Source: a virus. Taken from it: 64,000 nt of DNA. Positions 4,605-59,112 of this stretch are shown here, in pieces; within the stretch, counting starts at the first letter, position 1; each line of letters opens with the position of its first letter. The position numbers and the translations under genes were made by a program. Location of the stretch: the IMG/VR virus record IMGVR_UViG_3300030419_005367, positions 1 to 64,000 of that record. One strand, written 5' to 3'. The notes below the pieces were generated by a model. The model did no database searches. It had not been told where the DNA came from and saw only the letters and a list, made by a program, of their open reading frames with translations.

Positions 4605-5135
4605 ATGATATTAGGATTAGATATTTCCACCTCCATTGTGGGTGCCACTGTTTTGACCGATTTTGGTGAAGTCATTTATTGTGAGTCGTGGGATTTGAGA
4701 AACAAGAACAAGTTTCCGACTTTATTCAGCAAAGCCCAAGAGGTCAAGCATATGCTAGCTGGATTGTATGATGTTAAGAGACTTGCGTTTGATAAAGTTT
4801 ATATTGAACAATCATTGCAAGCCTTTCGCCCCGGATTCTCATCTGCAAGAACAATCTTGACACTATCACAGTTTAATGGTATAGTATCTTATATTATTCA
4901 AAGAGACTTTGAAATAGTACCAGAATATATCGGAGCATCTACAGCAAGAAAGGCTTGCGGCATCAAGGTTCAGAAGGGCCAGAAGGCAAAAGAAGTTGTT
5001 TTGAATTTTTTACTTGACAACGAGGATTCTTTTAGTATAGAATATACAAAGCACGGTAATCCTGTACCGGGATCTTATGATCGTGCAGATTCTTATATTA
5101 TAGCGAAAGCTGGATGGAAAAACTTAAACTCATAA
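4605..5135 (+). CDS. RuvC-like Holliday junction resolvase
   Basis: A 176-residue protein with the RNase H-fold RuvC pattern: D6 in GLDISTS, E68 in VYIEQS, and the late acidic pair D159/D162 in SYDRADSYIIA. The family cleaves DNA junctions with two metal ions. In a phage it would resolve branched replicative DNA before packaging. The start is fixed because catalytic D6 lies right behind ATG 4605. There is no Shine-Dalgarno sequence, and a TATAAT box ends 7 bases before the ATG. The gene overlaps the primase by 22 bases. Confidence 0.85.
   Translation: MILGLDISTSIVGATVLTDFGEVIYCESWDLRNKNKFPTLFSKAQEVKHMLAGLYDVKRLAFDKVYIEQSLQAFRPGFSSARTILTLSQFNGIVSYIIQRDFEIVPEYIGASTARKACGIKVQKGQKAKEVVLNFLLDNEDSFSIEYTKHGNPVPGSYDRADSYIIAKAGWKNLNS
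4857..4885 (+). promoter_or_regulatory. Intragenic sigma-70-like promoter TTGACA-17-TATAGT
   Basis: A perfect -35 at 4857-4862, a 17-base spacer and TATAGT at 4880-4885, inside the resolvase gene. It would drive the primase and the Mre11-Rad50 fusion gene. Confidence 0.5.
5014..5043 (+). promoter_or_regulatory. Second intragenic sigma-70-like promoter
   Basis: TTGACA is at 5014-5019, with TAGAAT at 5038-5043 (18-base spacer) or TATAGA at 5036-5041 (16). It lies about 70 bases before the primase start. Confidence 0.4.
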
Positions 5136-6046
5136 AAGAAATATTAGGCAGAGGGTATATCTCGGGCGAGGAACATTTGTTCTTTTGCCCGTACTGTAAA
5201 CACCATAAAAAGAAACTGTCAGTCAACGTAGACAAAGACTTCTTTAAGTGCTGGGTTTGCGATATGAGTGGTAGAACTATACGTCGTTTGGTTCGTCGCT
5301 TTGGGTCTTTTCAACAGTTGCAAGAATGGGATAGGATAAGTGGCAAAACAGACATATCGACTTTTGATGAAATTCTAGACTTTCAACACACTCCAGAGCC
5401 CCTGCAGAGAATTGCAATTCCAGAGGAGTTCGTAACTTTGACTGGAAAAAGCCAGCCAGCCTCGGCAACCCATGCATTGAAATATCTTGAAAACAGAGGC
5501 ATTACACATCATGATGTATTGCGCTGGAAGATGGGTTACTGCGTTAGAGGAACATACGAGGGTCGTATTGTAATACCATCATTTGATGAAGAAGGATATA
5601 TAAACTACTTTGTAGCAAGAGCCTACGACGGCAACTGGAGAAAGTACTTAAATCCATCTCTTTCAAAAGATATTGTATTTAATCACTTGTATCTTGATTG
5701 GGACTCTGATATAATACTAGTTGAAGGTGTATTTGATGCAATCAAAGCAGGGCCAAACTCGATCCCCCTTTTGGGATCAACATTGAGAGAGAATTCAAAG
5801 CTTTTTCAAGAAATAGTTAGAAACGATTCATCAGTTTATCTAGCTTTGGACGCAGATGCAGAAAAGAAAACAATGAGAATGATAAAGATTTTGCTAAGCT
5901 ACGGTATAGAAACATATAAAATAGATGTATCTGGGTTTGATGACGTTGGAGAGATGTCAAAAGAAGAGTTTTCGGTCAGAAAGTCTCAGGCCACAGCGAT
6001 CAACCCAGAAATGTTCTCGATGGAACAGGCACTAAATAGATTATAG
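5114..6046 (+). CDS. DNA primase, zinc-finger plus TOPRIM (T4 gp61/DnaG type)
   Basis: A 310-residue primase that would make RNA primers for the lagging strand with the DnaB-type helicase at 54338. A CHC2-like zinc finger has C25-x2-C28 and C46-x2-C49 (FFCPYCK ... FKCWVCD). The TOPRIM fold shows the Glu in ILVEGVFDA near residue 202 and the acidic LALDADAEKK near residue 245. Length is near that of T4 gp61. The start lies 22 bases inside the resolvase gene, giving tight coupling. The helicase sits about 50 kb downstream, unlike the adjacent pairing in many phages. Confidence 0.9.
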   Translation: MEKLKLIKEILGRGYISGEEHLFFCPYCKHHKKKLSVNVDKDFFKCWVCDMSGRTIRRLVRRFGSFQQLQEWDRISGKTDISTFDEILDFQHTPEPLQRIAIPEEFVTLTGKSQPASATHALKYLENRGITHHDVLRWKMGYCVRGTYEGRIVIPSFDEEGYINYFVARAYDGNWRKYLNPSLSKDIVFNHLYLDWDSDIILVEGVFDAIKAGPNSIPLLGSTLRENSKLFQEIVRNDSSVYLALDADAEKKTMRMIKILLSYGIETYKIDVSGFDDVGEMSKEEFSVRKSQATAINPEMFSMEQALNRL

Positions 6047-6055
6047 AGGTTTAAT

Positions 6056-9000
6056 TTGAAGTTCGCACACATAGCGGATACGCATATCCGCAACTTAAAA
6101 TACCATTTCGAGTATAAAGCAGTATTCGAAAAAATGTATGAGGAATTACGTAAAGAGAACGTAGATTACATTGTACATTGCGGTGATCTTGCACATACAA
6201 AGACTCAGCTAAGTCCTGAGTATTTTGAAATGGCAACTAATTTTCTGAGGTCACTTGCCGACATTGCACCAACCTACATCATTCCCGGAAACCACGACGG
6301 GAATCTCAAGAACAGCAGTCGTCAAGATGCGATCACTCCAATTATCGACGCACTGGAACACCCAAATTTACACCTTCTTAAAGATTCTGGTGAAGTCTCG
6401 CTTAGCGATGATTTTGCTTTGAACGTGCTTTCTGTTTTCGATGAAGAAAACTGGGCACAACCAAGTGATTATAATAAGGTAAACATTGCCTTGTATCACG
6501 GCTCTATCAGTGGCTGTAAAACTGATCTTAACTGGACAATGGAGTATGGAGAAAATGACATTACAATTTTTGAGGGACATGATTTTGCCTTTCTTGGAGA
6601 CATTCATAAAACTGATCAAGTCCTTGATGATGACGGTCGGATTAGATATTGCGGATCGACTGTTCAACAAAATCATGGAGAAAGTAACGATAAAGGCTTT
6701 CTGGTCTGGGACATAGAAGACAAAGAAACCTTCTCAGTAAAGCACATCGTACTGGAAAACCCTAAACCCTTTATTACGATCAACCTAACCCCAAAAGGTA
6801 GGATACCAAAAAATACGGTTATTCCTGAGGGAGCCCGTCTTCGCATTGCGACAAGCAACAATATTCCGCTTGACGTCCTAAGGAAGGCTGTCGATGTTTC
6901 TAAAGTAAGGTTCAAACCAGAATCAATTACAACTTTGAACCGTGCCGCTGGTAGCCGAGGAAGTGTTGAAAGTTTAACTGAGACGCTGAAGAAAGAAGAC
7001 CTTCGAGACGTGGCCGTACAAGAAAGGTTTATTAAGGAATACTTGAAAGACTACGAGCCAGAAGAAGAGGTTTTAGATCGTGTTTTTGATTTTAACGGCA
7101 CATATAACACGTTAGCAGAAGAAGAGGAGGAGGTTGCCCGTAACATTGATTGGAAGCTTGAATCGATGGAGTGGGACAATCTCTTCAACTACGGCGAGGC
7201 TAATAAGATAGATTTCGGTAATTTAAATGGGATCGTTGGTATTTTTGGAAAGAACTATTCTGGTAAATCCAGCATCGTTGACTCGCTTTTATTTACCTTA
7301 TATAATTCTACTTCCAAGAGAAATAGAAAAAACTTGCACGTTATTAATCAGACTAAAGAGGAGTGTGCAGGTAAATTAAATATTCGAATTGGAAACAAGG
7401 TTTATACAATTCGACGCATTGCTGAAAAATATGAGAAACGCCTCCACGGTAAAACAACAATGGAAGCCAAAACAGATATTGAATTTAGTTTGGCCGACGA
7501 AGCAACCGGCGACGAGGTTAGTTTAAATGGGCTAACCAGAAGCGACACAGACAAGAATATTCGCAAGATTTTCGGAACAATGGATGATTTCCTACTGACG
7601 TCAATGTCTTCGCAGATCGATTCTCTTTCCTTTATTAAAGAGGGTTCAACAAAGAGAAAAGAGATACTTGCGAAGTTTCTTGACCTAGAAATCTTCGAAA
7701 AGAAATACAGAATGGCAAAAGACGCAGCAGCAGACCTTAGAGGGGCCTTAAAGCGCCTTGAGGAGCGCGATTTTGACACGGAAATAGCAGAGGCGCAAGA
7801 AGAGCTTTCGGTCAATACAAAGGCAACTAAGAAGCATAAGAGAACTTGCGAAGTTGTTAAGGGCGAGTTGTCAGAAATGAAGGATGACTTAGCTGAAATC
7901 CTCGCCGCTATTAACGCAACACCAGCGCAGATCATTAACATTGAAAAGGTCACAGAAGATCTAGAACAAAAAAAGAAAGAGTTTCTTGAATGTGGAGAAT
8001 CTATTCTTGATCACAAAGCTGCAATAAAACAAAAGCAGACAGTTCTTGGAAAAATATCAGAGTTTTTAGGTAATTTTGATATAGTCAGCTTGAAGAACAA
8101 GCGAGAGATTATTGTTTCAAAAAGAAAAGAACTTGAAACAATAATGAATGAGATCAACCTAGAACAAACAAAACTGGACAGCGGCAACAAGAAGCTCCAG
8201 CTTTTGGAAGAAGTTCCATGTGGATCTGAGTATTCTCATTGTAAGTTTATTCACGATGCTTACGTGGCTAGAGAAAAGGTTGATGTTATTGGAAATCTTA
8301 TCGAGAAACTTAAAGATAAAGACAAGGTAATTGAAAGTGAGATCGAAAAACTCAATCCAGAAAAAGTAGAAGAACATATCGAGAATTATAATCAAATACT
8401 CGAAAGACAAACTACGCTAAATGGACTTATTTCTAAACTCTCAATGTCAATAGAACAAAACAAAACTAAAAAGAAATTGCTTGAGCACGAAATCGAATCT
8501 CTCTCTGATCAGATTGTCGAGTACAATGAAAACAAAGAGATGATTGAAAATTTAGAAAATTTGATGACCTCTAAGGCTTGCCTTGAAGAAGAGCTTTCGC
8601 AAAAGAACGAGACTCTAGAAGAGTGTGAACGAAGCTTGCTGACTCTTTATAAGGCTAATGGCTCGCTAGAACAACAGCTAGCAAACTTACAAGAGTCTAA
8701 AGATGAGTTAGCGTCTCTCCGCGAGGGCTACGCCGCATACGATCTTTTTATGAAATGTATGCACCCAAACGGAATCCCATACGACATTATTAAAAGACGC
8801 CTACCTCTTATCAACGAAGAGGTTGCAAAGATCTTGACTAATGTTGTAGACTTCGAAGTATTCTTTGAAGCTGACGGCAACAAGCTTGAGATTTTCATTA
8901 AGCATCCTCGATACGATGCTCGGCCAATCGAACTTGGGTCTGGCGCAGAGAAAACAATCGCTGCTATGGCGATTCGTCTCGCACTTCTTGGAGTTTCCAG

Positions 9001-9208
9001 CTTGCCGAAGCCAGACTTGTTCGTTATGGACGAACCCGGAACAGCCCTTGATGAAGACAATATGGAGGGCTTTATAAAAATTCTAGATATGGTAAAATCT
9101 TCATTTAAGACCGTACTAATTATTTCACACCTAGACTCACTAAAAGATTGTGTCGATACAACAATCGATATAGAAAGCCAGAGTGGGTATGCATACGTAA
9201 ATCAGTAG
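6056..9208 (+). CDS. Fused Mre11 (gp47)-Rad50 (gp46) recombination nuclease/ATPase
   Basis: One 1050-residue frame holds both subunits of an SbcCD-type complex. Residues 1-~230 carry the metallophosphoesterase motifs D8/H10 (IADTHIR), D44 (HCGDLAH), N79-H80 (PGNHDG), H148 and GDIHK at 181-185. Residues ~385-1050 carry the Rad50/SbcC ATPase: Walker A GKNYSGKSS near 398, a long charged coiled coil with a C722-x6-C729 hook, the signature LGSGAEKT near 960 and Walker B VMDEPGTALDED near 990. The start is TTG 6056, fixed by AGAGG at 6045-6049. T4 uses two separate genes, 46 and 47. It would resect DNA ends for recombination-dependent replication with UvsX. Confidence 0.9.
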   Translation: MKFAHIADTHIRNLKYHFEYKAVFEKMYEELRKENVDYIVHCGDLAHTKTQLSPEYFEMATNFLRSLADIAPTYIIPGNHDGNLKNSSRQDAITPIIDALEHPNLHLLKDSGEVSLSDDFALNVLSVFDEENWAQPSDYNKVNIALYHGSISGCKTDLNWTMEYGENDITIFEGHDFAFLGDIHKTDQVLDDDGRIRYCGSTVQQNHGESNDKGFLVWDIEDKETFSVKHIVLENPKPFITINLTPKGRIPKNTVIPEGARLRIATSNNIPLDVLRKAVDVSKVRFKPESITTLNRAAGSRGSVESLTETLKKEDLRDVAVQERFIKEYLKDYEPEEEVLDRVFDFNGTYNTLAEEEEEVARNIDWKLESMEWDNLFNYGEANKIDFGNLNGIVGIFGKNYSGKSSIVDSLLFTLYNSTSKRNRKNLHVINQTKEECAGKLNIRIGNKVYTIRRIAEKYEKRLHGKTTMEAKTDIEFSLADEATGDEVSLNGLTRSDTDKNIRKIFGTMDDFLLTSMSSQIDSLSFIKEGSTKRKEILAKFLDLEIFEKKYRMAKDAAADLRGALKRLEERDFDTEIAEAQEELSVNTKATKKHKRTCEVVKGELSEMKDDLAEILAAINATPAQIINIEKVTEDLEQKKKEFLECGESILDHKAAIKQKQTVLGKISEFLGNFDIVSLKNKREIIVSKRKELETIMNEINLEQTKLDSGNKKLQLLEEVPCGSEYSHCKFIHDAYVAREKVDVIGNLIEKLKDKDKVIESEIEKLNPEKVEEHIENYNQILERQTTLNGLISKLSMSIEQNKTKKKLLEHEIESLSDQIVEYNENKEMIENLENLMTSKACLEEELSQKNETLEECERSLLTLYKANGSLEQQLANLQESKDELASLREGYAAYDLFMKCMHPNGIPYDIIKRRLPLINEEVAKILTNVVDFEVFFEADGNKLEIFIKHPRYDARPIELGSGAEKTIAAMAIRLALLGVSSLPKPDLFVMDEPGTALDEDNMEGFIKILDMVKSSFKTVLIISHLDSLKDCVDTTIDIESQSGYAYVNQ

Positions 9209-43226: not shown

Positions 43227-46200
43227 ATGGCCGAAGAAAAGATTCCAAATAACATTGATGAATGCTTTTTGTTAGACTTTATGTCTGACATCGCAACTTT
43301 CCGCGGCATTACCAATTTTGAAAAGCAATCAGAGCATGTTGTTATTTTAGATGATAAGCATTCTGGAGATTCTAAGCTTTTTCTAAATCAGCTTATTGAC
43401 CCAGAGTATCAATCTTTAATGGACGCCTGCCCTAAGAACTTATTTCAGTCATTGTCTCCAATGGTTAATCTGTATAAAGTTTTTTACGATCCAGCCGACA
43501 CCACTAAAGAAGAAATTAAATCAGTCAAGTTTCAATTTGGAAAATTTGACCCTTTGAAAGCAAAACAAGCTATTAGGGAACTGAGAACTTCATATGGAGA
43601 CGACGCCGCTTTATACGGAGGTTTCCGACCCGGACACTTAGCGCCTAGTATCACAGAAGCTAACATAGTTTTTGATGGACAGAATCCGGCTGAGGCCAGC
43701 GCCTTTGTTAAAGTAAATTTAAAACTATATTTCCCTTCTTCCGACGCTTTGTTTTTTAAAAAAAACATCGCAGGACAGGAAATGAGCTTTGCAAACCTGA
43801 TAGAAAGACCAACTGTTCCGAAAGCTCAAAACGCGCAACTTATGCTGGAAGACAACCACAGAGTTTATTCTCAAGACAACTTTAGAATTAAAATGGAACT
43901 TTTCTATCTGCCTAAAGATTCAACATTTCTTAATGATGATAAAGTTTGGGGCAAAGACTTTCCCTTAAATCGACGAAGAGCAATTATGGAATTAATAAGC
44001 AACAATCGATTGACTTTATTTTTAAATATTGTAAAACACGAATTTTCTTTCGATCACGACAATGTAAACTTGCCTTTCTACCTAGACGTTCAATATATTG
44101 GTGCCCTAGAGAGTGCAATGAATACAAAACACGCCGACATCTTAAAAGATCCAGAGTATGATAGGAAGATGGGCGAGATTATGAAAACAGAAGAGTATCG
44201 TAATTACCAATTAGCTAAATTAGCTTCTGATAGCCTTGGATTGCAGAACTTAACAAAGGCTGGCGTTAATATAGACACAGTATCACATCGTAATGTTAAA
44301 GCCAGAGGTTTACCAAATGAAGTATCTGAGTTTGTTATCACTCCTGAAATGGTTGAGCGGTATCAGATAACATTGCTCGCCGAACCCGGAAAAACCTATG
44401 GAGGCGAACCAGATTTTGACCGTCATCACCGCATCATGGATATTCCTGAGCTAGCGGCTGGCTATGAAGAACGTAAATTAAGTAAAGATGCTATGGATAA
44501 TCTCAAAGGCGCGATCAAATCAGAATCAAAAGCATGGGCTCAAGTGGGCGTAGAGTGGTCCGTCAGAAAATCTTTAGCACTTCAAAATTATGGCGAAACA
44601 AAAAGAGCATATGATAAATTATTGAAAGACAGGGGTATGCTTGAAGATCAACAGCGCAGCAGGTCTTACAGTAGAATCATCGAGCAGCTTTATGGCCGCG
44701 TTGGTAAGGGTGAGTCTGCAACTTTCGGATCGGCCTCGACATTATCAGAATCAGACCAAACGCGCCTCAAAAGAGCCGGCAATCCATACGTCTATACTGT
44801 TGAGGTACCAGCCGGAGACCTACGAGATTATGTAAATCGCAGGGGTTCCAGAGCTTTAGATAAAGAGACAGAAAAGAGTCTTAAAGAGTTGGAAAAAAAT
44901 GGCGACACCGCTGCAGCAGATGAACTCCGCCGCCAACGGGAATCTATCCAAAACGATACGAGGTCCTTTTATAAACATTTTTGGAAAAAGATTAACCCTC
45001 AGTTGCTAAAGGCACAAAGAGATATAACAATAGTTGAAGGTGCTGAGTTTGAGGGAATCTTTGGGGATGACGAAGGGTACACCAAGACAAGTCAGACGAC
45101 AGGTAGGGAATATACCGCTGAACAGGCAGTTTCGACAGCCGACATTTTGCGGCAAATAGCTAAAAAACAAATTGAAGGCGGGAAAACCGATGAGCTTCAT
45201 AATTTGTTGAAAAAAAGCACTGATCGAGCCATCGCCCCAGAAAAGCTCACAGGCACTTATGCAATAAATTATTTTTTCTTAGGTGATTTAATAGATATAG
45301 TTTTAAAAACCGTCCATCAGTCGAACAGCAAACATCATTTAAATTTGTATGCCGATTCGGAGAACAAGAACTCTACTCCGACCGGAAAAGATTTAGTAAA
45401 TAAGACACTTTTTGTTTTAGGAAATATAACTTGGAACGATTTCACCAGTAATGGTAAGAAAACAATTTCTTTAGACAGGGTTCCAATTTCAATGAAGCTT
45501 TTTATGGAATTTTGGATTGAAAAAGTTGTTAAAAGACAGAGAAAGAGTTATCCACTAAATCAATTTATAAAAGATGTCATGACAAACTTAGTGAAAGCTG
45601 TTTTTACAAACAAATGTAGAATTCACGGGGAGCCGCTCAATAACCTTACTTGTAATTTAGAGCATGTTTCAGTTAATCCAGACATCTCAGGAGATCCAAA
45701 GATTAACCTCATTCCTAGTATGGCAGAGGAGGACATACGCAAAGCGTATTTCGGCGCTCTTCTCCCAATAAGTTCCGCGGCTCGTATTTTGTTAACTCGC
45801 CCTACTAAAGCGCAGATCCTTAAAGCCGCCACAAGGGCAGAGTCAGATGCTCCTCCTATTCCAAATTTCGCAGAACTCGCCTCATCGAATTCATCAGTAA
45901 GAAAGAGAGCGCAGAGACAACAAAAGCGACGAGCCCGCCATGAAAAGAGACCTTTTCATCAATTAAACACAGTAGAGCTTATATATGTGTACGCCACAAA
46001 TGACAAGCCTGAACATCTGCAAGGCAACAGAAAGAAGGATGTCGACGCCGGCGTCGTTCATTTGGAGGTTGGAAATCCAAATTCGCCCTTAAAACAAGTT
46101 AGCTTTAATAAAAGCGACCAGCCTTTTTATCTAGAGGCAAAGGGCGAGACAAATGACCTGAAAGACAATTCTTTAGAATTGAGCGAACCTTACAATCTCG

Positions 46201-47057
46201 ATCTCAGCTTCTATGGACTGACTTACCCACGCCCGGGCCAACATTTTTATTTGAAATTAAAGAACTTTGGTGACCCTAGATCAAAACGCAGCCGCGGCAC
46301 AACCTTGCTAGCTGGCAATTATTCCGTCCAAGCTAGTCCTTCGCGAAGACTGGGCATCGGCGGATATTATATGATGAACAAGATTGAGCATAACTTCAGG
46401 GCTGAAGGTGGCAGAACCTATTGGGAAACGATGACTCAAGCTTTGTGGACCACCTTTGGAGATCGTAAAGCAGAGAATAATCGAACACTGAGCAACACAC
46501 CGGATCCATTTAGCAACCCTGCAGACTACGGCACCGGTGCAATGCTAATGGCTGGAAATGCGGAACATTCCACGGTGCTTAGAAACATCGACCGCAGACT
46601 TTCAGAGGCCGGCATCACTGCCCGAGGTTCACTTGCCCCCGGACGCGCAAGCGAGGTGTTACCAGAAGAAGACCAAAAATATACTGGCAACACCAACAAA
46701 CAAATACAATTAGCAGAACTTAGAGTCAAGGAGATCCGGAAACGCGCTGAGGGCGAAGAAGGCATCCTAGGAACAATGGATGTGGACCCCAGCAGAGAGT
46801 ACGAATTTAAATCTCTTGCCGAAGATTTAGCCGAGAAAAGAGAGGAGGCTAGAGAAAAACCCGTTCTTAGCACGAAAGATATTACTAGCGATATCGACTT
46901 TACCCCAGAAGAGCAATCAAAAATGCGAGCAGAATATAATGCGGCCAACGAAGCCCGCCTCCGCGAAAACTCTGGAAAAGTCATCTCTCGCCGTAAAGAT
47001 CCCCAAACTGGTGAAATCATCGAAACCACACTCCCAGAATATGAAGGTGGTGAATAA
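43227..47057 (+). CDS. Large baseplate hub-type protein
   Basis: A 1276-residue protein, the largest in the tail block. It starts IPNNIDECFLLDFMSDIATF. Near residues 990-1075 it has LSFYGLTYPRPGQHFYLKLK, LGIGGYYMMNKIEHNF and GRTYWETMTQALW, the sort of beta domain seen in tail hub proteins (gp27/gpD). A coiled, charged region occupies ~430-640, and the last ~170 residues are charged and helical. It may combine the roles of hub and spike-anchoring subunits. No lysozyme motif was seen. Confidence 0.65.
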   Translation: MAEEKIPNNIDECFLLDFMSDIATFRGITNFEKQSEHVVILDDKHSGDSKLFLNQLIDPEYQSLMDACPKNLFQSLSPMVNLYKVFYDPADTTKEEIKSVKFQFGKFDPLKAKQAIRELRTSYGDDAALYGGFRPGHLAPSITEANIVFDGQNPAEASAFVKVNLKLYFPSSDALFFKKNIAGQEMSFANLIERPTVPKAQNAQLMLEDNHRVYSQDNFRIKMELFYLPKDSTFLNDDKVWGKDFPLNRRRAIMELISNNRLTLFLNIVKHEFSFDHDNVNLPFYLDVQYIGALESAMNTKHADILKDPEYDRKMGEIMKTEEYRNYQLAKLASDSLGLQNLTKAGVNIDTVSHRNVKARGLPNEVSEFVITPEMVERYQITLLAEPGKTYGGEPDFDRHHRIMDIPELAAGYEERKLSKDAMDNLKGAIKSESKAWAQVGVEWSVRKSLALQNYGETKRAYDKLLKDRGMLEDQQRSRSYSRIIEQLYGRVGKGESATFGSASTLSESDQTRLKRAGNPYVYTVEVPAGDLRDYVNRRGSRALDKETEKSLKELEKNGDTAAADELRRQRESIQNDTRSFYKHFWKKINPQLLKAQRDITIVEGAEFEGIFGDDEGYTKTSQTTGREYTAEQAVSTADILRQIAKKQIEGGKTDELHNLLKKSTDRAIAPEKLTGTYAINYFFLGDLIDIVLKTVHQSNSKHHLNLYADSENKNSTPTGKDLVNKTLFVLGNITWNDFTSNGKKTISLDRVPISMKLFMEFWIEKVVKRQRKSYPLNQFIKDVMTNLVKAVFTNKCRIHGEPLNNLTCNLEHVSVNPDISGDPKINLIPSMAEEDIRKAYFGALLPISSAARILLTRPTKAQILKAATRAESDAPPIPNFAELASSNSSVRKRAQRQQKRRARHEKRPFHQLNTVELIYVYATNDKPEHLQGNRKKDVDAGVVHLEVGNPNSPLKQVSFNKSDQPFYLEAKGETNDLKDNSLELSEPYNLDLSFYGLTYPRPGQHFYLKLKNFGDPRSKRSRGTTLLAGNYSVQASPSRRLGIGGYYMMNKIEHNFRAEGGRTYWETMTQALWTTFGDRKAENNRTLSNTPDPFSNPADYGTGAMLMAGNAEHSTVLRNIDRRLSEAGITARGSLAPGRASEVLPEEDQKYTGNTNKQIQLAELRVKEIRKRAEGEEGILGTMDVDPSREYEFKSLAEDLAEKREEAREKPVLSTKDITSDIDFTPEEQSKMRAEYNAANEARLRENSGKVISRRKDPQTGEIIETTLPEYEGGE

Positions 47058-48403
47058 TGCCAGATTCAACAAGTACATACGCCCAGTTTTACTATAAACA
47101 ATCAAGACGAGATGCATTTCCTAAATTTGGACCAAAGCCGATGGATGTGCATTATGAGAAACTTCATTATGGTAAGGTTGATCAAAAACAGTATTCTGTT
47201 TATATGACAGACCCCTTGAACTTGTCTCAACTACAGCCCGGACAACCTCACGTTGCGCTAGATTTCGTTGCCGACGCCTTTGGGGATTTGCAGAGGTATT
47301 TCTCGAAAGCAGTATCTTTAGGCAGGTTACACAAAAGAGGTAAGTTTTATAAAGGCATCGAGGCCCGCGGAGGCTGGAGAGATGTAAACACTCTTTATTC
47401 CAACTGGCTCGTAGGGATATATGCTGGATTTGAAGCATATTTGTTAGCTGGAGATAAGCCTAAAAACCAAGAGATTAGGTCTTTTGGGGATTATGTAGAC
47501 AATTTTATCAATTATGTTTCTGCTATAGCTTCTGATTGGCCAATAACAAAAACAGGGTGGATTAAATCAAGGCACTGTCCCGCAAATATTAGTGGCTTGA
47601 TAGTCGATATTTCTAGAGATCCTTTTTCTGACGAAGAAGTTGCAAAAAGATGGCTTCAAGATCCAAATTTTGTTTTTTATAGGAATGCTGCCATAAAACA
47701 CGGATTTTTAGTTACGAAGAATGCCCCGTGGAGGCTGTATGCAAATGTTGCTTCTGTGGAAATGCAGAACTATTGGACAAGAACAATAGAACCAACACCA
47801 GAACAAGTTGAGATAGCGAGGAATGCTGGCTGGACAGATGCACAAATAATCCAATCTTACAGAAAGACGAGTTCTAAGAAAGGTTTGGTATATTCCCCCG
47901 GCAATGCATCAAATTTATTTAATCTTTACTACAATAGAAGTTATAAATATGATATACTAGAGCTAATGAACTCCTTGGGAAGATATTATAATCGATTTGT
48001 CCAGAGGTATCCAACCGTTACAATCCTTAAGCCTACATCACTGTCCTGCGCCACCCCCGGTTCGGTTGATAAAACGGTAATCTTTAGGTCACGAGTTGAC
48101 TTGGCCGAAGTCGAGAGAGTCTTTCTTCCCCTAGGGATACCTTTTTACATTTTCTTAAGAGCCAGTGAAGAATCGATCTTCGGCTACATGGATCCTAAGA
48201 GGTTTGACAGGATCGTAGAAAAATCAGCTTTTTTGTTAAAAAAGGTTGACTTAGATAAAGCAATGCTGTATATTAATAAGAGTATAAGTAGAATTGCCTC
48301 ACAGAAAGCAGCCGCGAACCCTGAGTTCTGTCAGAACTATCAAAGCTGTAATCTACAGGCGGGCAGTTTGGTTGATTATACATATGTGAAAGAACATTCA
48401 TGA
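47057..48403 (+). CDS. Probable tail/baseplate protein, unknown
   Basis: A 448-residue protein that starts on the last base of the previous stop codon (TAATG), so it is coupled to the hub-type gene. It is Tyr/Trp-rich (YAQFYYKQSRRDAF ... VYMTDPLNLSQLQPGQPHV). No enzyme motif is evident. It is the last gene of the virion block. Structural role is inferred from coupling. Confidence 0.65.
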   Translation: MPDSTSTYAQFYYKQSRRDAFPKFGPKPMDVHYEKLHYGKVDQKQYSVYMTDPLNLSQLQPGQPHVALDFVADAFGDLQRYFSKAVSLGRLHKRGKFYKGIEARGGWRDVNTLYSNWLVGIYAGFEAYLLAGDKPKNQEIRSFGDYVDNFINYVSAIASDWPITKTGWIKSRHCPANISGLIVDISRDPFSDEEVAKRWLQDPNFVFYRNAAIKHGFLVTKNAPWRLYANVASVEMQNYWTRTIEPTPEQVEIARNAGWTDAQIIQSYRKTSSKKGLVYSPGNASNLFNLYYNRSYKYDILELMNSLGRYYNRFVQRYPTVTILKPTSLSCATPGSVDKTVIFRSRVDLAEVERVFLPLGIPFYIFLRASEESIFGYMDPKRFDRIVEKSAFLLKKVDLDKAMLYINKSISRIASQKAAANPEFCQNYQSCNLQAGSLVDYTYVKEHS

Positions 48404-48410
48404 GGAAAAA

Positions 48411-49598
48411 TTGCTTTTTCAAACACTTGATGACAAACAAGAATGCATTGGAGTTTATATCGATGGTGAAATATATTACGGAGAACTTCCTGAAGGTCTT
48501 ACTGCAACTTGGGAGTATGCCCCTTATCTTGATGGACAAGATATTGACTACGCTGGGCTATACTGTGCTGGATTGTCTTGCAGCGGGGCTTGTCCCGAAT
48601 CGCTAAAAGACCAGTGGGAAGAAAAGACTGATAGACTGAAGGCTTTTTTGAGATCTTTTCAAGAATCAAAAGTCGACCTTCATGAGAACTGCTTTTTTGA
48701 GTTGGTTCCGTCTAGGTTTCTATTAGAATATTGTGAACTTAAGAACAAGATTACAAGACATGTTCTAGAAAACTATTCACGTCCTAAAAATTACGATTTT
48801 AACCTAGGTTTGACCAAGTTGACTAGTCAAATTAGGGGACAAAAAATCAATTTGGATCTGGAGTCCTTGAATGGGCAGATGTCTAGTTTTAGAACGAGGC
48901 AGTGGAAAAACAAATTGGCATCCTTGCCCCCTTATATACATTATAATATGTATGGGACAAAGACAGGCCGCTTCACAACAAAGAAAAATAGCTTCCCAAT
49001 CCTCACTCTCGCAAAAGAGCTTAGAAAGGTGATAAAGCCGCAGAATGATTGGTTTATTGAGCTTGATTTCAATGCAGCCGAACTTCGAACGCTATTGGCC
49101 CTTTCCGGGCAGGAACAGCCAGAGCAAGACATTCACACTTGGAACGCCAAACACGTCTATAACGACGAACTGACGCGTGATGAGGCTAAGAAACGAATCT
49201 TTGCTTGGCTATACAATCCAGTTTCGAAAGATAACCTCTCTTCTGGCGTTTATGACAGAGATTCGGTGCTTAAAAAGTATTGGGACGGTGAACAAGTATG
49301 TACCTTTTATGATAGAATAATACCTGCGGATAAGCACCATGCTTTGAACTATATTATTCAAAGTACGACGAGTGATACCTTTTTGAGGAGGGTCTTGGCC
49401 GTCAATAAGTTACTTCAAGACAAAAGGTCCAAAATCGCATTTTGTATTCACGATAGTTTGGTTCTGGATTTTGCGGACGAGGATAGGGAATCCTTATTGG
49501 AGATGATAAAGGAATTTTCTGAGACAGATTTGGGCGTATTCAAAGTTAATGTTCACGCCGGCAAAAATTTTGGTGAAATGAAGGAAATGAAACTGTGA
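48411..49598 (+). CDS. Minimal family A DNA polymerase (no exonuclease domain)
   Basis: A 395-residue polymerase domain. Before motif A is YGTKTGRFTTKKNSFP. Motif A is ELDFNAAELRTLLALSG with D219. Motif B keeps the R-x3-K-x3-F-x3-Y spacing: R256, K260, F264, Y268 in RDEAKKRIFAWLYN, though the usual Gly after Tyr is Asn. Motif C is IHDSL with H347-D348-S349, not HDE. Residues 1-~130 are not a 3'-5' or 5'-3' exonuclease. Start TTG 48411 with GAGG at 48402-48405. It may act in repair or gap filling beside the DnaE-type enzyme at 62751. Confidence 0.85.
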   Translation: MLFQTLDDKQECIGVYIDGEIYYGELPEGLTATWEYAPYLDGQDIDYAGLYCAGLSCSGACPESLKDQWEEKTDRLKAFLRSFQESKVDLHENCFFELVPSRFLLEYCELKNKITRHVLENYSRPKNYDFNLGLTKLTSQIRGQKINLDLESLNGQMSSFRTRQWKNKLASLPPYIHYNMYGTKTGRFTTKKNSFPILTLAKELRKVIKPQNDWFIELDFNAAELRTLLALSGQEQPEQDIHTWNAKHVYNDELTRDEAKKRIFAWLYNPVSKDNLSSGVYDRDSVLKKYWDGEQVCTFYDRIIPADKHHALNYIIQSTTSDTFLRRVLAVNKLLQDKRSKIAFCIHDSLVLDFADEDRESLLEMIKEFSETDLGVFKVNVHAGKNFGEMKEMKL

Positions 49599-51117: not shown

Positions 51118-51861
51118 ATGGCTATTGATTTAGAGAAAATGAAAGCAAAGCTTAACAAGCTTCAAAATAAGGGATCGCAGGATACTGTATTCTGGCGTCC
51201 GGAGGACGGTGAACAGACAATTCGTATTGTTCCAACTCCAGATGGAGATCCCTTCAAGGACTTCTGGTTCCATTATAATGTGGGCAAGAATCCCGGCTTT
51301 CTAAGCCCAAAGAAAAACTTTGGGGAATCTGATCCGCTGGACTCTTTCGTGCGTGAGTTGTTCGACGAAGGCACAGAGGACAGTATTAAGATGGCGAAGA
51401 ACCTTATGGCTCGCCAACGATTCTTCTCGCCCGTAATTGTACGAGGTGAAGAAGATAAGGGTGTCCGTATCTGGGGGTACGGAAAGATGGCTTACGAAAA
51501 GCTGTTGAGCCTAGTACTTAATCCAGAGTACGGTGATATCACCGATTCTGAGGAAGGTACAGACCTAGTGATTCATTATGGAAAGCCAGTAGGCGCTAGC
51601 TTTCCTCAAACAAAGATCACACCACGTCGCAAAAACTCGGCTTTATGTGACGACAACTCGCGCTGCAAAGAGTTACTTGAAAATATCCCCGACTTCAACA
51701 CTCTTTTCGAGCGCAAGACACCTGAAGACGTGGGGCAAATGTTAGATGAGTTCCTCGCAGGTGAAGAGAGTGCTGAAGAGCGCTCTAAAGAAACTACCAA
51801 GTATGGCGATGACACCACAAAGGATGTCGACGCAGCTTTTGAAGAGCTTCTTGGTAGTTAA
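51118..51861 (+). CDS. Single-stranded DNA-binding protein (gp32-like)
   Basis: A 247-residue protein with TVFWRPEDGEQTIRIVPT near residue 23, FKDFWFHYNVGKNPGFLSP near 47 and IWGYGKMAYEKLL near 121, plus an acidic C-terminal tail (~215-247) used for protein contacts. It would coat ssDNA in replication and recombination with UvsX. In T4 gp32, His64 and three Cys hold a zinc. Here the corresponding segment SPKKNFGESDPLDSF has no Cys, so the zinc site seems lost. AGGAGAA at 51107-51113 sets the start. Confidence 0.87.
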   Translation: MAIDLEKMKAKLNKLQNKGSQDTVFWRPEDGEQTIRIVPTPDGDPFKDFWFHYNVGKNPGFLSPKKNFGESDPLDSFVRELFDEGTEDSIKMAKNLMARQRFFSPVIVRGEEDKGVRIWGYGKMAYEKLLSLVLNPEYGDITDSEEGTDLVIHYGKPVGASFPQTKITPRRKNSALCDDNSRCKELLENIPDFNTLFERKTPEDVGQMLDEFLAGEESAEERSKETTKYGDDTTKDVDAAFEELLGS

Positions 51862-51928: not shown

Positions 51929-53059
51929 ATGGCAAGACCAAAAAATACAAAACCCGGAAAGATTTCCATGGGCGACATTCGCAGTATGATCAACAAGCGA
52001 GCCGGAATGAATGTTGCACATAACTTACAAGAAGCCAACCCTACAGAGGTGAAAGAGTGGATTCCAACAGGATCCCGTTGGCTTGATTCTATTATTTGTC
52101 GAGGACAACTTGCCGGTATTCCAGTAGGAAAGGTTGTGGAGATTGCAGGACTTGAAGCATCAGGTAAGTCTTATATGGCTGCACAGATTGCAGCGAACGC
52201 TCAGAAAATGGGTATTGACGTAGCTTATTTTGATTCCGAGTCTGCGATTGATCCCGACTTCTTAGAACGCGCAGGCTGCGATCTGGAAAGACTACTATAT
52301 GTACAGGCTCAGTCAGTTGAGTTTGTCCTAGAGACGATTGAGGAGCTTTTAAGCACTGGCAACAAGTTTCTTTTTATCTGGGACTCTCTTGCCTTAACAC
52401 CAGCGATTAGCGACTTGGAGGGGGACTTCAACCCGCTTTCTTCGATGGCTGTAAAGGCTCGAATCTTAGCGAAAGGTATGTCAAAATTGACAATTCCTAT
52501 CGCAGATACGCAATCGACCTTCTTGGTGCTTAACCAATTGAAAACAAACATCACTAGAAGCCCCTCTGAGGCTCTTGTGGAGCCCTATATGACCCCCGGA
52601 GGCAAGGCAATGATTTATGCCTACTCTTTGCGTGTTTGGCTCACAGGCCGCAAATCTAAGGCTTCTTTTATTACCGATGACCGCGGCTTCCGAGTAGGAT
52701 CAGAAGTCAAAGCTACTCTAAAGAAGAGTCGTTTTGGAACACAAGGTCGCCAGTGTACATTTAAGATTATGTGGGGCGATGAAATTGGAGTTCAGGATGA
52801 AGAGTCTTGGTTTGAAGCGGTTAAAGGCTCTAAGCACATGACTAGTTCTGGTTCTTGGTACACCCTTGATATGGGTGACGGAAACTCAGTTAAGTTCCAA
52901 CCATCAAAATGGAAAGAGAAGATTCAAGACGAAGCATTCCGTGCTCGCATTTTACAACTCATCGATGAAGAAGTAATCCTTAAGTTTGATAAACGAGAAG
53001 GCACTGCTGCTGATTACTATGACATTGAAGGCGAGACAACTGATGACTCCGACGAATAA
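51929..53059 (+). CDS. uvsX: UvsX/RecA-type recombinase
   Basis: A 376-residue strand-exchange protein. Walker A GLEASGKS at 74-81, AYFDSESAIDP near 99, Walker B FLFIWDSLAL near 150 and the L2 region TRSPSEALVEPYMTPGGKA near 210 match UvsX. The C-terminus is acidic (GETTDDSDE). It would start recombination-dependent replication with the Mre11-Rad50 fusion, SSB and resolvase. The next gene starts inside its last 17 bases. Confidence 0.93.
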   Translation: MARPKNTKPGKISMGDIRSMINKRAGMNVAHNLQEANPTEVKEWIPTGSRWLDSIICRGQLAGIPVGKVVEIAGLEASGKSYMAAQIAANAQKMGIDVAYFDSESAIDPDFLERAGCDLERLLYVQAQSVEFVLETIEELLSTGNKFLFIWDSLALTPAISDLEGDFNPLSSMAVKARILAKGMSKLTIPIADTQSTFLVLNQLKTNITRSPSEALVEPYMTPGGKAMIYAYSLRVWLTGRKSKASFITDDRGFRVGSEVKATLKKSRFGTQGRQCTFKIMWGDEIGVQDEESWFEAVKGSKHMTSSGSWYTLDMGDGNSVKFQPSKWKEKIQDEAFRARILQLIDEEVILKFDKREGTAADYYDIEGETTDDSDE

Positions 53060-54017
53060 AAACAGAGTACTGATCGTTGATGCATTAAATATGTATTTTC
53101 GGTCATATATCGTAGACCCTAGCCTCTCCACCAACGGACAGCCAATTGGTGGAGTTAAAGGCTTTCTCAAGATCCTTCAAAAGCTCCTTCGCGAAACAAG
53201 GCCAGATCAAGTGGTTATTGCTTGGGACGGACCCGGCGGATCTAGAAAGCGAAAGACAATAAACAAGAACTATAAAGAAGGCAGGAAGCCCCTGCGTTTA
53301 AATAGAGATATCAAGCACTTAACTGAAAATGAGGAGCTTGAAAACAAACTTTGGCAACAAGCGAGATTGTTTGAATACTTGAACGAGATGCCCGTGTCTC
53401 AGGTGATGCTCCCTGAAGTAGAAGCTGACGATGTTATTGCCTATGTTACACAAATGGAGTCTCTGAAAGGCTGGCAGAAAGTTGTTGTGAGTAGTGATAA
53501 AGATTTCTTTCAACTCTGCGATGAAGAAACAATTTTGTTCAGACCAGTACAAAAGGAAGTTTTAAACCAAGCTAGAATCTCTGAAAAGTTTGGGATTCAT
53601 CCGACGAACATGGCTCTCGCCAGAGCTATGGCAGGTGATAAGAGCGATAACCTCCCCGGCGTCCCCGGAGCAGGCTTAAAGTCTATCGCTAAACGATTTC
53701 CGTTTTTAGCAGAGGAAAAGACATGTGATTTAAAAACTCTTTTCGATTACTGTGAGAGTTTAGACAGCAATCTGAAAATATTCACAGGCGTGCTGGAAAA
53801 CAAAGAAGTAATCGAGGAGAACTATAAGATAATGCAACTATACTCTCCAAACATATCTATTCAAGGAAAGAATAAGATATGCTATGCGATAGAAGAGGCA
53901 GAACAACAGTTTAATAAGACCGAAGTTATGAAGATGATGAACGAAGATGGCTTCGGCGTTTTCAACTGGACAGACTTATTCGCGACAATGAAAAGAATTG
54001 TTGCAGATAACGCTTGA
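53043..54017 (+). CDS. 5'-3' exonuclease (FEN/T4 RNase H type)
   Basis: A 324-residue nuclease that would remove RNA primers and flaps. Metal-binding acids are seen in LIVDALNMYF (D13), AWDGPGGSRKR, PEVEADDVIAYV, VVSSDKDFFQL and the helix-hairpin-helix AGDKSDNLPGVPGAG. I chose ATG 53043 (MTPTNKNRVLIVDAL); an earlier in-frame start at 52986 adds 19 residues that only translate the uvsX overlap. Confidence 0.9.
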   Translation: MTPTNKNRVLIVDALNMYFRSYIVDPSLSTNGQPIGGVKGFLKILQKLLRETRPDQVVIAWDGPGGSRKRKTINKNYKEGRKPLRLNRDIKHLTENEELENKLWQQARLFEYLNEMPVSQVMLPEVEADDVIAYVTQMESLKGWQKVVVSSDKDFFQLCDEETILFRPVQKEVLNQARISEKFGIHPTNMALARAMAGDKSDNLPGVPGAGLKSIAKRFPFLAEEKTCDLKTLFDYCESLDSNLKIFTGVLENKEVIEENYKIMQLYSPNISIQGKNKICYAIEEAEQQFNKTEVMKMMNEDGFGVFNWTDLFATMKRIVADNA

Positions 54018-54059: not shown

Positions 54060-54338
54060 ATGAAAAGATTTATATTTTTAACGGGCTTGTTTTTGTCAAG
54101 TTGTTTGGTTGTAGATTCTAGAATTCCAGAACCAACAGGTCCGTATTTATTAGAGCCAGTTTGTGATAACGTTGAGCAATTATACTGGGACTTGGGAAAC
54201 CCAACATACTGCTACCCAGATCAGTGCTGTATTTGGGAATATTATGATTATGATGGATGGCTCTGCGAAGAGACGTGGTGCGAATACTGGGATTCTTATG
54301 GTTGCTGGTGGGAAAACATTGATGTTGTGTGCTGGTAA
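54060..54338 (+). CDS. Small Cys/Trp/Tyr-rich lipoprotein
   Basis: A 92-residue protein with a signal peptide MKRFIFLTGLFLSSC and lipobox LSSC (C15), so lipidated and membrane-bound after export. The mature part is acidic and full of Cys, Trp and Tyr (CYPDQCCIWEYYDYDGW, then ETWCEYWDSYGCWW), with eight further Cys that could form disulfides. Phage lipoproteins of this size often block superinfection; that role is inferred. AGGAGA at 54048-54053 sets the start. The stop overlaps the helicase start as TAATG. Confidence 0.8.
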   Translation: MKRFIFLTGLFLSSCLVVDSRIPEPTGPYLLEPVCDNVEQLYWDLGNPTYCYPDQCCIWEYYDYDGWLCEETWCEYWDSYGCWWENIDVVCW

Positions 54339-55708
54339 TGAAAGATACTAAGGCTAGCTTTTCAAAATATGGCAGAAAGTTTCAGGAAAGTCTTTGTCAA
54401 CTTATGTTGCAGGATCGATCTTTCTGTGATCAGTTAGTAGAGGTCTTTGACATTGAGTTTTTAGAACTTAAGCACTTACGAGTATTCGTCAATCAGGTTG
54501 TGGAGTACAAACAAGAGTATGAAACACACCCATCGCGTGAAACGATGATGACTCTTTTGCGCGCAAACTTGGATGATGAAAGCGAAGCAATAAAGCTCCA
54601 AGTTAGGGACTACTTTGCTCGTATTCACAAGTCAGACATGGGTGTCGACGGCGAAGAGTACATTAAGAAAACAGCACTAGATTTTTGCAAGAAACAAAAG
54701 CTCAAAGAAGCTATGATCAAGTCAGTCGGCCTTTTGCAAAAATCTTCTTTTGATGAGATCGCAGAAGAAATTAACAATGCCTTAAAACTAGGTTCTGATA
54801 ATAATTTTGGCTATGATTACCTTAAAGACTTTGAAGAGAGGTTCGTGTTCAGACCTAGGAACCCAGTCACTAGCGGTTGGAAATATATTGATGAAATTTG
54901 CGAAGGTGGCTTGGGTCAAGGTGAGCTTGGAGTGGTCATCGCCCCAACCGGTGCAGGAAAGAGTATGGCTCTTGTACATTTAGGCGCTGAAGCTATAAAA
55001 TCAGGCAAAAATGTGATACACTATACACTAGAGCTAGGGTCGACAGTAATAGCATCGAGGTATGATAGTTGTATGACAAAAGTGCCGTTAAAAGAGTTGC
55101 CAGCATTTAAAGATATGATCTATGATAAGGTGAAAGATCTCGAAGGGCGCTTAATTGTTAAAGAATATCCAACAAAATCTGCCTCACCGGCCACAATCAA
55201 GAATCACCTTGAAAAACTTAAGCTTAGAGGCATTTCTATCGATATGATTATTATAGATTATGGTGATTTATTAAGACCTTCTGTCATTCGTAAAGAGAAA
55301 CGACACGAGTTGGAGACTATTTACGAAGACCTCAGGGCGATAGCTCAGGAATATGAATGTCCCGTTTGGACAGCATCTCAGACAAACAGGTCTGGATTGA
55401 ACGCAGAAGTCATTACGATGGAGTCAATCTCTGAGGCTTTTAATAAGTGTTTTGTTGCAGATTTTATTTGCACGATTTCACGTACAGTGGAGGACAAAAT
55501 AGATAACGAAGGAAGAATGTTTGTAGCAAAGAACAGAAATGGTCCTGATGGGTTGGTGTTCCCAATGAAAATAAATACATCAAACGTGCAGTTGGAGGTT
55601 TTAGAACCCGGAACTGACAATACAATCCAATCTGTGGTTGTAAAAACTGCGAGAGAGCAGAAAGATTTATTAGCTGACAAGTATAAAAAATTTAGGAGCA
55701 AACAATGA
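54338..55708 (+). CDS. Replicative DNA helicase (DnaB/gp41-like)
   Basis: A 456-residue RecA-fold helicase. Walker A APTGAGKS at ~202-209, IHYTLELGSTVIASRYDS after it, Walker B DMIIIDYGDLLRP near 305 and the sensor-like ASQTNRSGLNAE near 345. The N-terminal 170 residues are helical, as in gp41/DnaB. It would unwind DNA and recruit the primase at 5114. I prefer ATG 54338 (TAATG overlap with the lipoprotein stop) over GTG 54329. Confidence 0.92.
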   Translation: MKDTKASFSKYGRKFQESLCQLMLQDRSFCDQLVEVFDIEFLELKHLRVFVNQVVEYKQEYETHPSRETMMTLLRANLDDESEAIKLQVRDYFARIHKSDMGVDGEEYIKKTALDFCKKQKLKEAMIKSVGLLQKSSFDEIAEEINNALKLGSDNNFGYDYLKDFEERFVFRPRNPVTSGWKYIDEICEGGLGQGELGVVIAPTGAGKSMALVHLGAEAIKSGKNVIHYTLELGSTVIASRYDSCMTKVPLKELPAFKDMIYDKVKDLEGRLIVKEYPTKSASPATIKNHLEKLKLRGISIDMIIIDYGDLLRPSVIRKEKRHELETIYEDLRAIAQEYECPVWTASQTNRSGLNAEVITMESISEAFNKCFVADFICTISRTVEDKIDNEGRMFVAKNRNGPDGLVFPMKINTSNVQLEVLEPGTDNTIQSVVVKTAREQKDLLADKYKKFRSKQ

Positions 55709-58162: not shown

Positions 58163-58450
58163 ATGAAATTAGAGCCAAGAAATAGACATCTTCTCATCGA
58201 ACCCATCGTGGAAGAAGAAAAAACAGAAGAAAACACTACGAACATCTTGCTACCAGATGATTACGCGACACCACCAAAACCTTATGCTACAGCTAGGGTC
58301 CTAAGTGTGTCTCCAAGTTGTAATGTTGGAGTTAGCAGAGGAGACAAAGTACTTGTCGAAAACTCAATGGTTCAAAAGATTGAGATTGATGACGATGAGT
58401 TCTATTTAGTGTTAGAAAATTATGTTTACGGAGTTGTGTCGGCTAGATGA
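58163..58450 (+). CDS. GroES-like co-chaperonin (gp31 analogue)
   Basis: A 95-residue protein with the GroES plan: RNRHLLIEPIVEEEKTE at the start, a Thr/Asn mobile-loop region NTTNILLPDDYATPPKPY, then ATARVLSVSPSCNVGVSRGD, KVLVENSMV and a final YLVLENYVYGVV. It would pair with host GroEL to fold capsid protein, as T4 gp31 does. Start ATG 58163 follows AAAGGAGA at 58151-58158. The loop is longer than in typical GroES. Confidence 0.78.
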   Translation: MKLEPRNRHLLIEPIVEEEKTEENTTNILLPDDYATPPKPYATARVLSVSPSCNVGVSRGDKVLVENSMVQKIEIDDDEFYLVLENYVYGVVSAR

Positions 58451-59112
58451 AGATCACACTGAAAGAAATTAAAGAGCTTGTGGATAAAGAAGTAATTCTT
58501 GAAATCAGATTAAAGAGATGGTTAGAAAACCACTTTAATACGATTGGATTTGCTTCGATAACTTCAGACAGGGGCAATCTTTCCCCAGAAGAAAATAGCA
58601 AGAACTTTACTGAGCTTATGGCCCTTATTCGTGGCGCTGGTTTTGGGTTTGTAAAAACTGAAGGCGGCTGGGAAGAGGATCAAGGCGAAGAGAAACTAGT
58701 CAGTGTAACTGAAAGGAGCTTGATGGTCCCCGGAAAGTCCACAAAGATGGAAGATCCAAAAGAATCTCTTGAAGCCCTTTTTGAGCTTTGTAAAACAATC
58801 TGTGAGATGTACAATCAGGATGCTTTTCTTTTTGGATGGGGGCTTCATCACGAGCACCGTCCAGAAAGCACCGGTGCACCGTTCGCAGCAGTTTATGATC
58901 GAAATGGGAAAGTTCTTTACGGACCTTTCTCAGAAGCGGAAGAAGGGAGTGCTCTGCAAGTATGGTCCAGACTAGTAAAAGGTGAGGACAGAAGAGTTAA
59001 GTTTGCTTTTACTGAATGGACAGCAGCAGATCCACCTAATAATCAATTTGAGGCCATGGGCCGCGCCAGTCAAGGCGAAATCTTTTTAGCAAAACCAAAA
59101 ACAGAGGTATAA
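58447..59112 (+). CDS. Conserved protein, DUF3293-like candidate
   Basis: A 221-residue protein. After a helical start (MKITLKEIKELVDKEVILEI) it has FASITSDRGNLSPEENSKNF, then LIRGAGFGFVKTEGGW and a late EALFELCKTICEMYNQDAFLFG. Similar patterns occur in small phage and bacterial proteins annotated as DUF3293-like; this is from memory. Start overlaps the co-chaperonin stop as ATGA. Function unknown. Confidence 0.7.
   Translation: MKITLKEIKELVDKEVILEIRLKRWLENHFNTIGFASITSDRGNLSPEENSKNFTELMALIRGAGFGFVKTEGGWEEDQGEEKLVSVTERSLMVPGKSTKMEDPKESLEALFELCKTICEMYNQDAFLFGWGLHHEHRPESTGAPFAAVYDRNGKVLYGPFSEAEEGSALQVWSRLVKGEDRRVKFAFTEWTAADPPNNQFEAMGRASQGEIFLAKPKTEV

Follow-up and report, generated by a model that had tools for sequence, protein, structure and literature searches.

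Background

The Mre11-type nuclease and the Rad50-type ATPase are two proteins encoded by two genes both in phage T4 (gp47/gp46) and in bacteria (SbcD/SbcC), where a CxxC hook is the norm; this Rad50 hook has been described as CxxC from archaea to human, and even in viruses (PMC5093744, PMC9569753). They are also known as a single chain: the protein R555 of Mimivirus, 1351 residues long, is a Mre11-Rad50 fusion with the Mre11 part at the N-terminus and the Rad50 part at the C-terminus (Yoshida, Claverie and Ogata 2011, PMC3175470). The same authors listed twelve further fusions (five in bacteria, six in eukaryotes and one in Bacillus phage 0305phi8-36), reported others from plasmids and marine viral metagenomes, and argued that the abundant marine and aquatic relatives of R555 are viral, perhaps partly from phages. 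In fusions of this type, the two halves are expected to be separated by a capping and helix-loop-helix (HLH) region and by some nine to twelve linker residues (PMC3175470). Two active-site substitutions were noted in R555: Asp242 stands for His206, and the third Asp of GDxxD has become a histidine. The hook cysteines are not mentioned in that paper (PMC3175470).

Results

A fused reading frame and its relatives

The stretch of DNA analysed here, hereafter the window, comprises 64,000 nucleotides (positions 1 to 64,000 of the IMG/VR record IMGVR_UViG_3300030419_005367). On its plus strand, an ORF at 6056-9208 starts with TTG, preceded at six bases by AGAGG, and runs without interruption for 1050 residues; the position of the start recurs in relatives, as TTG, GTG or ATG. 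Residues 1-296 form an intact Mre11/SbcD nuclease, residues 319-356 the predicted helix pair of Mre11 and residues 366-1050 a complete Rad50/SbcC ATPase. Both the parts and their order are the usual ones and, as in R555, the nuclease is N-terminal and the ATPase C-terminal within a single ORF. Pfam finds Metallophos (1.2e-12) and SMC_N (9.6e-11) in the fusion, and PHROGs finds phrog_100 SbcD over residues 2-338 (1.6e-33) and phrog_77 SbcC over 297-1048 (1.5e-55). The statement of the initial annotation that Mre11 and Rad50 share one unbroken frame of 1050 residues is therefore borne out by the ORF and by both libraries, and the residues it had named (D8, H10, D44, N79-H80, GDIHK at 181-185, Walker A, signature and Walker B) are all at their places.

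Scanning IMG/VR with the fusion protein returned 22 relatives, among which L001 is 86% identical, and a profile scan returned at least 579 related stretches. Identity to the window protein is 48-86% for the eighteen homologues that come from the first of these scans. The set used below consists of 97 full-length ORFs including the window's own, of which some are mutually identical (92 different sequences); L071 and L089 were left out, as they contain ambiguous bases or a stop. The initial annotation had proposed a survey of marine viral proteins for the same domain order, and this order was indeed found in the 96 other ORFs of the set, all from viral contigs. As to a bacterial source, the genome contigs held only three close copies, all in metagenome-assembled genomes (L108-L110), assigned to Acidiferrobacteraceae, Flavobacteriales and the WOR-3 chromosome CP070664.1, where the match is limited to residues 2-627. 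These are probably phage contigs binned or scaffolded with bacteria, and a bacterial source was rejected; L108 and the IMG/VR locus L043 seem to be one and the same element.

The nuclease half and the junction

The nuclease and capping domain (residues 1-296, 6056..6943, plus strand) is recognised by Metallophos, by phrog_100, by structural alignment (Z 24.3 to S. aureus SbcD 7dog and 23.3 to E. coli SbcD 4lty for the model of these residues) and by its invariant active site: D8, H10, D44, N79, H80, H148, D182 and H184 are present in 97/97 homologues. All five phosphoesterase motifs with their metal ligands are found in the window protein, one ligand being Asp182 instead of His. This residue, in GDIHK, corresponds to His206 of Pyrococcus Mre11, and the third Asp of GDxxD is replaced by His (GDLAH at 43-47). 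The two substitutions are the same as those of Mimivirus R555. Because Asp182 stands where Pyrococcus has His206, metal use or the balance of exo- and endonuclease activities may differ.

Between the two halves, AlphaFold2 predicts helices at 319-332 and 337-356 with pLDDT of about 81-93. From their position and from the predicted helices, we infer that residues 319-356 (7010..7123, plus strand) form the Rad50-binding helix-loop-helix of Mre11, followed by a linker of about 8 residues; the capping/HLH region and short linker described for R555-type fusions are present here. The junction region also holds a conserved block, LRDxxVQExLIxEYLKDYE. In the structural alignments, the first residue of Rad50 falls on residue 364-366 of the fusion. 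The initial annotation had placed the nuclease where the docking helices of Mre11 normally lie; the nuclease does not take their place, as both predicted helices lie between it and the ATPase.

The ATPase half

The N-lobe of the ATPase (residues 366-544, 7151..7687) is supported by phrog_77, by SMC_N and by structural alignment, and it contains the Q-loop and the Walker A motif GKNYSGKSS (398-406, 7247..7273). Long helices of the AlphaFold2 model delimit a first coiled-coil arm at 545-719 (7688..8212) and a second one at 730-902 (8243..8761). The C-lobe follows (8762..9205; like the preceding parts, on the plus strand), with the signature LGSGAEKT at about 960-967, including S962, G963 and E965, a Walker B ending at D992-E993, the D-loop at 999 and the H-loop at 1025; its sequence matches Rad50 in the PDB (E 9e-11). 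Of the features of a Rad50/SbcC ATPase, the window protein thus has both Walker motifs, the signature, the Q-, D- and H-loops and a long coiled coil. K404, Q520, S962, G963, E965, D992, E993 and D999 are invariant in 97/97 homologues. The model of residues 364/366-1050 can be superposed on Rad50 starting with its first residue, with Z 30.1 for 3av0_B and 29.4 for 7yzo, E. coli SbcCD. Both halves of the window protein match solved structures of Mre11, Rad50, SbcD and SbcC. The monomer model, computed from 43 aligned rows, has a mean pLDDT of 82.3 and a pTM of 0.50, too low for the relative placement of the two halves to be read.

Similar fusions in named viruses

Single annotated genes span nearly the whole fusion in the jumbo phages pT24, PTm1 and PTm5 of Tenacibaculum, PAU of Sphingomonas and MA9V-1 of Chryseobacterium, and in Microcystis phage Mel-JY01. 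The Tenacibaculum fusions are longer than the window protein, at about 1310 residues. The fusion of Mel-JY01 (WWT39521.1, L024 7947-11147) is 31% identical to it, has a hook of the form EYDPxCxxC and lies, as in the window, just downstream of a primase; the T4-like terminase of this phage is 41% identical to the window's. In the BFVD library of viral structures, the top-ranking proteins come from giant viruses, for instance Tupanvirus and Harvfovirus, and are as long as fusions; the best of them is about 23% identical to the window protein by structural alignment. The novelty which the initial annotation implied for the fusion has to be given up, since phage fusions were described in 2011 (PMC3175470) and single genes are annotated in named phages: the kind of fusion is already known, and the window protein is a further member of it, common in marine phages.

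Two other arrangements can be mentioned. In a 484-kb phage (LR756508.1), the fusion gene is broken just after GDIHK by an ORF of 305 residues with zinc-finger-like cysteine motifs (L025:3665-4582), which resembles an intron-borne homing endonuclease; an Rfam search for the intron in this locus gave no match. In Bacillus phage 278BB001 (L139), SbcD and SbcC are separate adjoining genes in a fusion-like order, near DnaB and primase, and the fusion could arise from such an arrangement.

Genomic context

The source record is a 73.7-kb contig of a tailed marine phage with a contractile tail, which encodes TerL, portal, major head protein, tail sheath and baseplate-wedge-like proteins. A DnaG-type primase lies directly upstream of the fusion (5114..6046, plus strand; phrog_47, 1.9e-41), and a relative of it is upstream on the same strand in 73/81 loci with enough flank, including Mel-JY01. 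Further along the plus strand are a gp32-like SSB (51118-51861; Pfam gp32, 1.6e-12), UvsX/RecA (51929-53059; Pfam RecA 1.2e-34, UvsX phrog_97 1.9e-54), a 5'-3' exonuclease (52986-54017; Pfam 5_3_exonuc_N, 4.8e-31) and a DnaB-like replicative helicase (54329..55708; phrog_19, 1.4e-73). Homologues of UvsY, gp59 and UvsW were not identified among the contig ORFs scanned, which are a subset. The contig also encodes ribonucleotide reductase and a C-terminal part of PolA (48411-49598, 395 aa), the sole polymerase portion recognised; it is preceded by two ORFs (43227-47057, 1276 aa, and 47057-48403, 448 aa) for which PHROGs gives nothing and Pfam nothing above cut-off, and the DNA polymerase of the phage may be split across neighbouring ORFs. 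At 58447-59112 there is a weak match (9.5e-6, 26.0 bits for a cut-off of 28) to the S-adenosylmethionine lyases, one of the kinds of anti-restriction enzymes found in phages.

We also looked for a separate second SbcC/SbcD pair in these incomplete records and did not retain it: the extra matches are weak (4.8e-4 in the window's record, 1.1e-4 and 8.5e-4 in record G006). In the window's record, as in ten large records of related viruses (147-204 kb), strong matches to SbcD and SbcC are confined to the fusion. This and the company of recombination genes support a single Mre11-Rad50 machine per phage; by analogy with T4 gp46/gp47, it would serve both replication and recombination.

A hook which changes type

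The tip of the hook is PCG-x5-C (residues 720-729, 8213..8242, plus strand), with C722 and C729 as its cysteines. The window protein has C-x6-C in place of the canonical CxxC, just as the initial annotation had noticed. A pair of cysteines is present in 97/97 homologues while its spacing varies: C-x6-C in 70, C-x7-C in 13, CxxC in 9 and C-x3-C in 5. A hook-only search of named phages with the PCG-x5-C tip found no match at E 1, and the literature on hook spacing in phages yielded only descriptions of CxxC.

On a tree built from the catalytic parts only, the C-x6-C label requires 14 changes, at least 13 of them forced by supported branches, when shuffled labels average about 24. This means that the type of hook, as read from these sequences, is inherited yet often switching. 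Between the sisters L095 and L102, identity is 94% over the catalytic parts, 57% over the arms and 16% over the hook of 31 residues; for L076 and L077 these values are 94%, 71% and 55%. Pairs with the same type of hook behave otherwise: distant C-x6-C pairs have 53% identity in the hook versus 26% in the arms, and same-type pairs with 85-90% catalytic identity have 84% versus 57%, when the hook identity of different-type pairs in this range is about 53%. All these percentages for pairs are descriptive and carry no test, the pairs sharing ancestry and being non-independent. EYDPxCxxC is not confined to one branch of the window's homologue family but turns up as the tip in separate ones, and also in Mel-JY01. 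In L093 and L102 the tip is short, with a plain CxxC (CSGC and CTSC), and the apex is shortened; their closest sisters, L068 and L095, differ from them in this. In sister pairs with differing hooks, DNA identity is 28-60% in the hook bin and about 70-95% over most of the catalytic part. As this drop is gradual along the coil, with no sharp step, recombination and local fast change would both fit the sequences and cannot be told apart.

Discussion

The fusion is quite probably the ordinary two-copy Mre11-Rad50 machine of the phage, employed in T4-like recombination-dependent replication and break repair. The dimer, the zinc, the DNA substrate and the role in replication are what we infer from the known systems; domains, motifs and expected role are shared with T4 gp47/gp46 and with SbcD/SbcC, and the part played in replication and recombination is taken by analogy from T4 gp46/gp47, whose role is discussed in PMC3175470. 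Two chains would dimerise through their nuclease domains and their ATP-sandwiched Rad50 heads to give the usual 2:2 head, and the coiled coils, of about 170 residues per arm, would meet at the hook, where the two cysteines of each chain would share one zinc across the dimer. The fusion would bind and tether DNA ends, the ATP-gated, metal-dependent Mre11 activity would trim them, and the exposed 3' single strands would be handed to the UvsX and gp32-like proteins of the phage; this resection would support T4-like recombination-dependent replication and break repair. It had been suggested that the fusion fixes a 1:1 stoichiometry. The unfused Mre11-Rad50 complex is already 2:2, hence the fusion need not alter anything in this respect.

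Could the single chain be an artefact, two adjoining genes having been joined by assembly or by a sequencing error? Such separate neighbours do exist elsewhere, for example in Bacillus phage 278BB001. However, the junction is read through by 97 full-length ORFs, L001 included, the one-gene fusion is present in cultured phages, and the window's own record gives one fusion match with no internal stop. We therefore rejected an assembly error, to which we would grant practically no chance, and regard both chance origin and assembly error as excluded. It is also very improbable that the translated fusion acts as two separate proteins, released by an internal start or by cleavage of the linker. The model does contain a low-confidence loop (299-311) and a short linker (357-364), and residue 371 of the window protein is a Met. 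Nevertheless, strong conservation spans the junction, at W366 and in the LRD..YLK block, and several relatives (L008-L011, L013) have Leu where the window protein has Met371, so that a start there is not conserved; on this ground we rejected a conserved internal start from which Rad50 alone would be made.

The main job of the enzyme might rather be to degrade the DNA of the host or of competitors, or to cleave hairpins in the manner of SbcCD. SbcCD homologues cut hairpins and protein-blocked ends, and in structural alignment the fusion matches E. coli SbcCD no less well than archaeal MR. Against this, the gene company is one of replication and recombination, with the primase upstream in most of the loci and UvsX and a gp32-like SSB in the contig, and we hold this alternative for distinctly unlikely.

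The hook remains to be interpreted. Judging from the sequences, its switching looks like an exchange of dimerisation modules. Such an exchange is plausible because a chimera of yeast Rad50 with a MukB hinge is described as still functional (PMC6969161). One may go further and suppose that the hooks would be dimerisation alleles, repeatedly swapped, so that a Mre11-Rad50 would pair only with its own kind, a reading which we find rather unlikely. As a conjecture, the excluded partners would then be the Mre11-Rad50 of a co-infecting phage or of the host, and PCG-x5-C, EYDPxCxxC, PCGPDC and C-x7-C would be incompatible tips borne by near-identical catalytic parts.

Conclusion

A well-populated family of marine phages is now added to a kind of protein of which only a few cases had been described in 2011. 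The guess made then, that marine relatives of R555 are often phage genes, is borne out. A Mre11-Rad50 in a single chain also lends itself well to biochemical and cryo-EM work. The fusion itself is ordinary in kind; the switching hook is the part which specialists might not expect. Within one orthologous family, the CxxC zinc hook can change its spacing and apparently be swapped, and if these hooks dimerise, they would provide natural variants, perhaps non-cross-reacting, with which the function of the hook may be probed.
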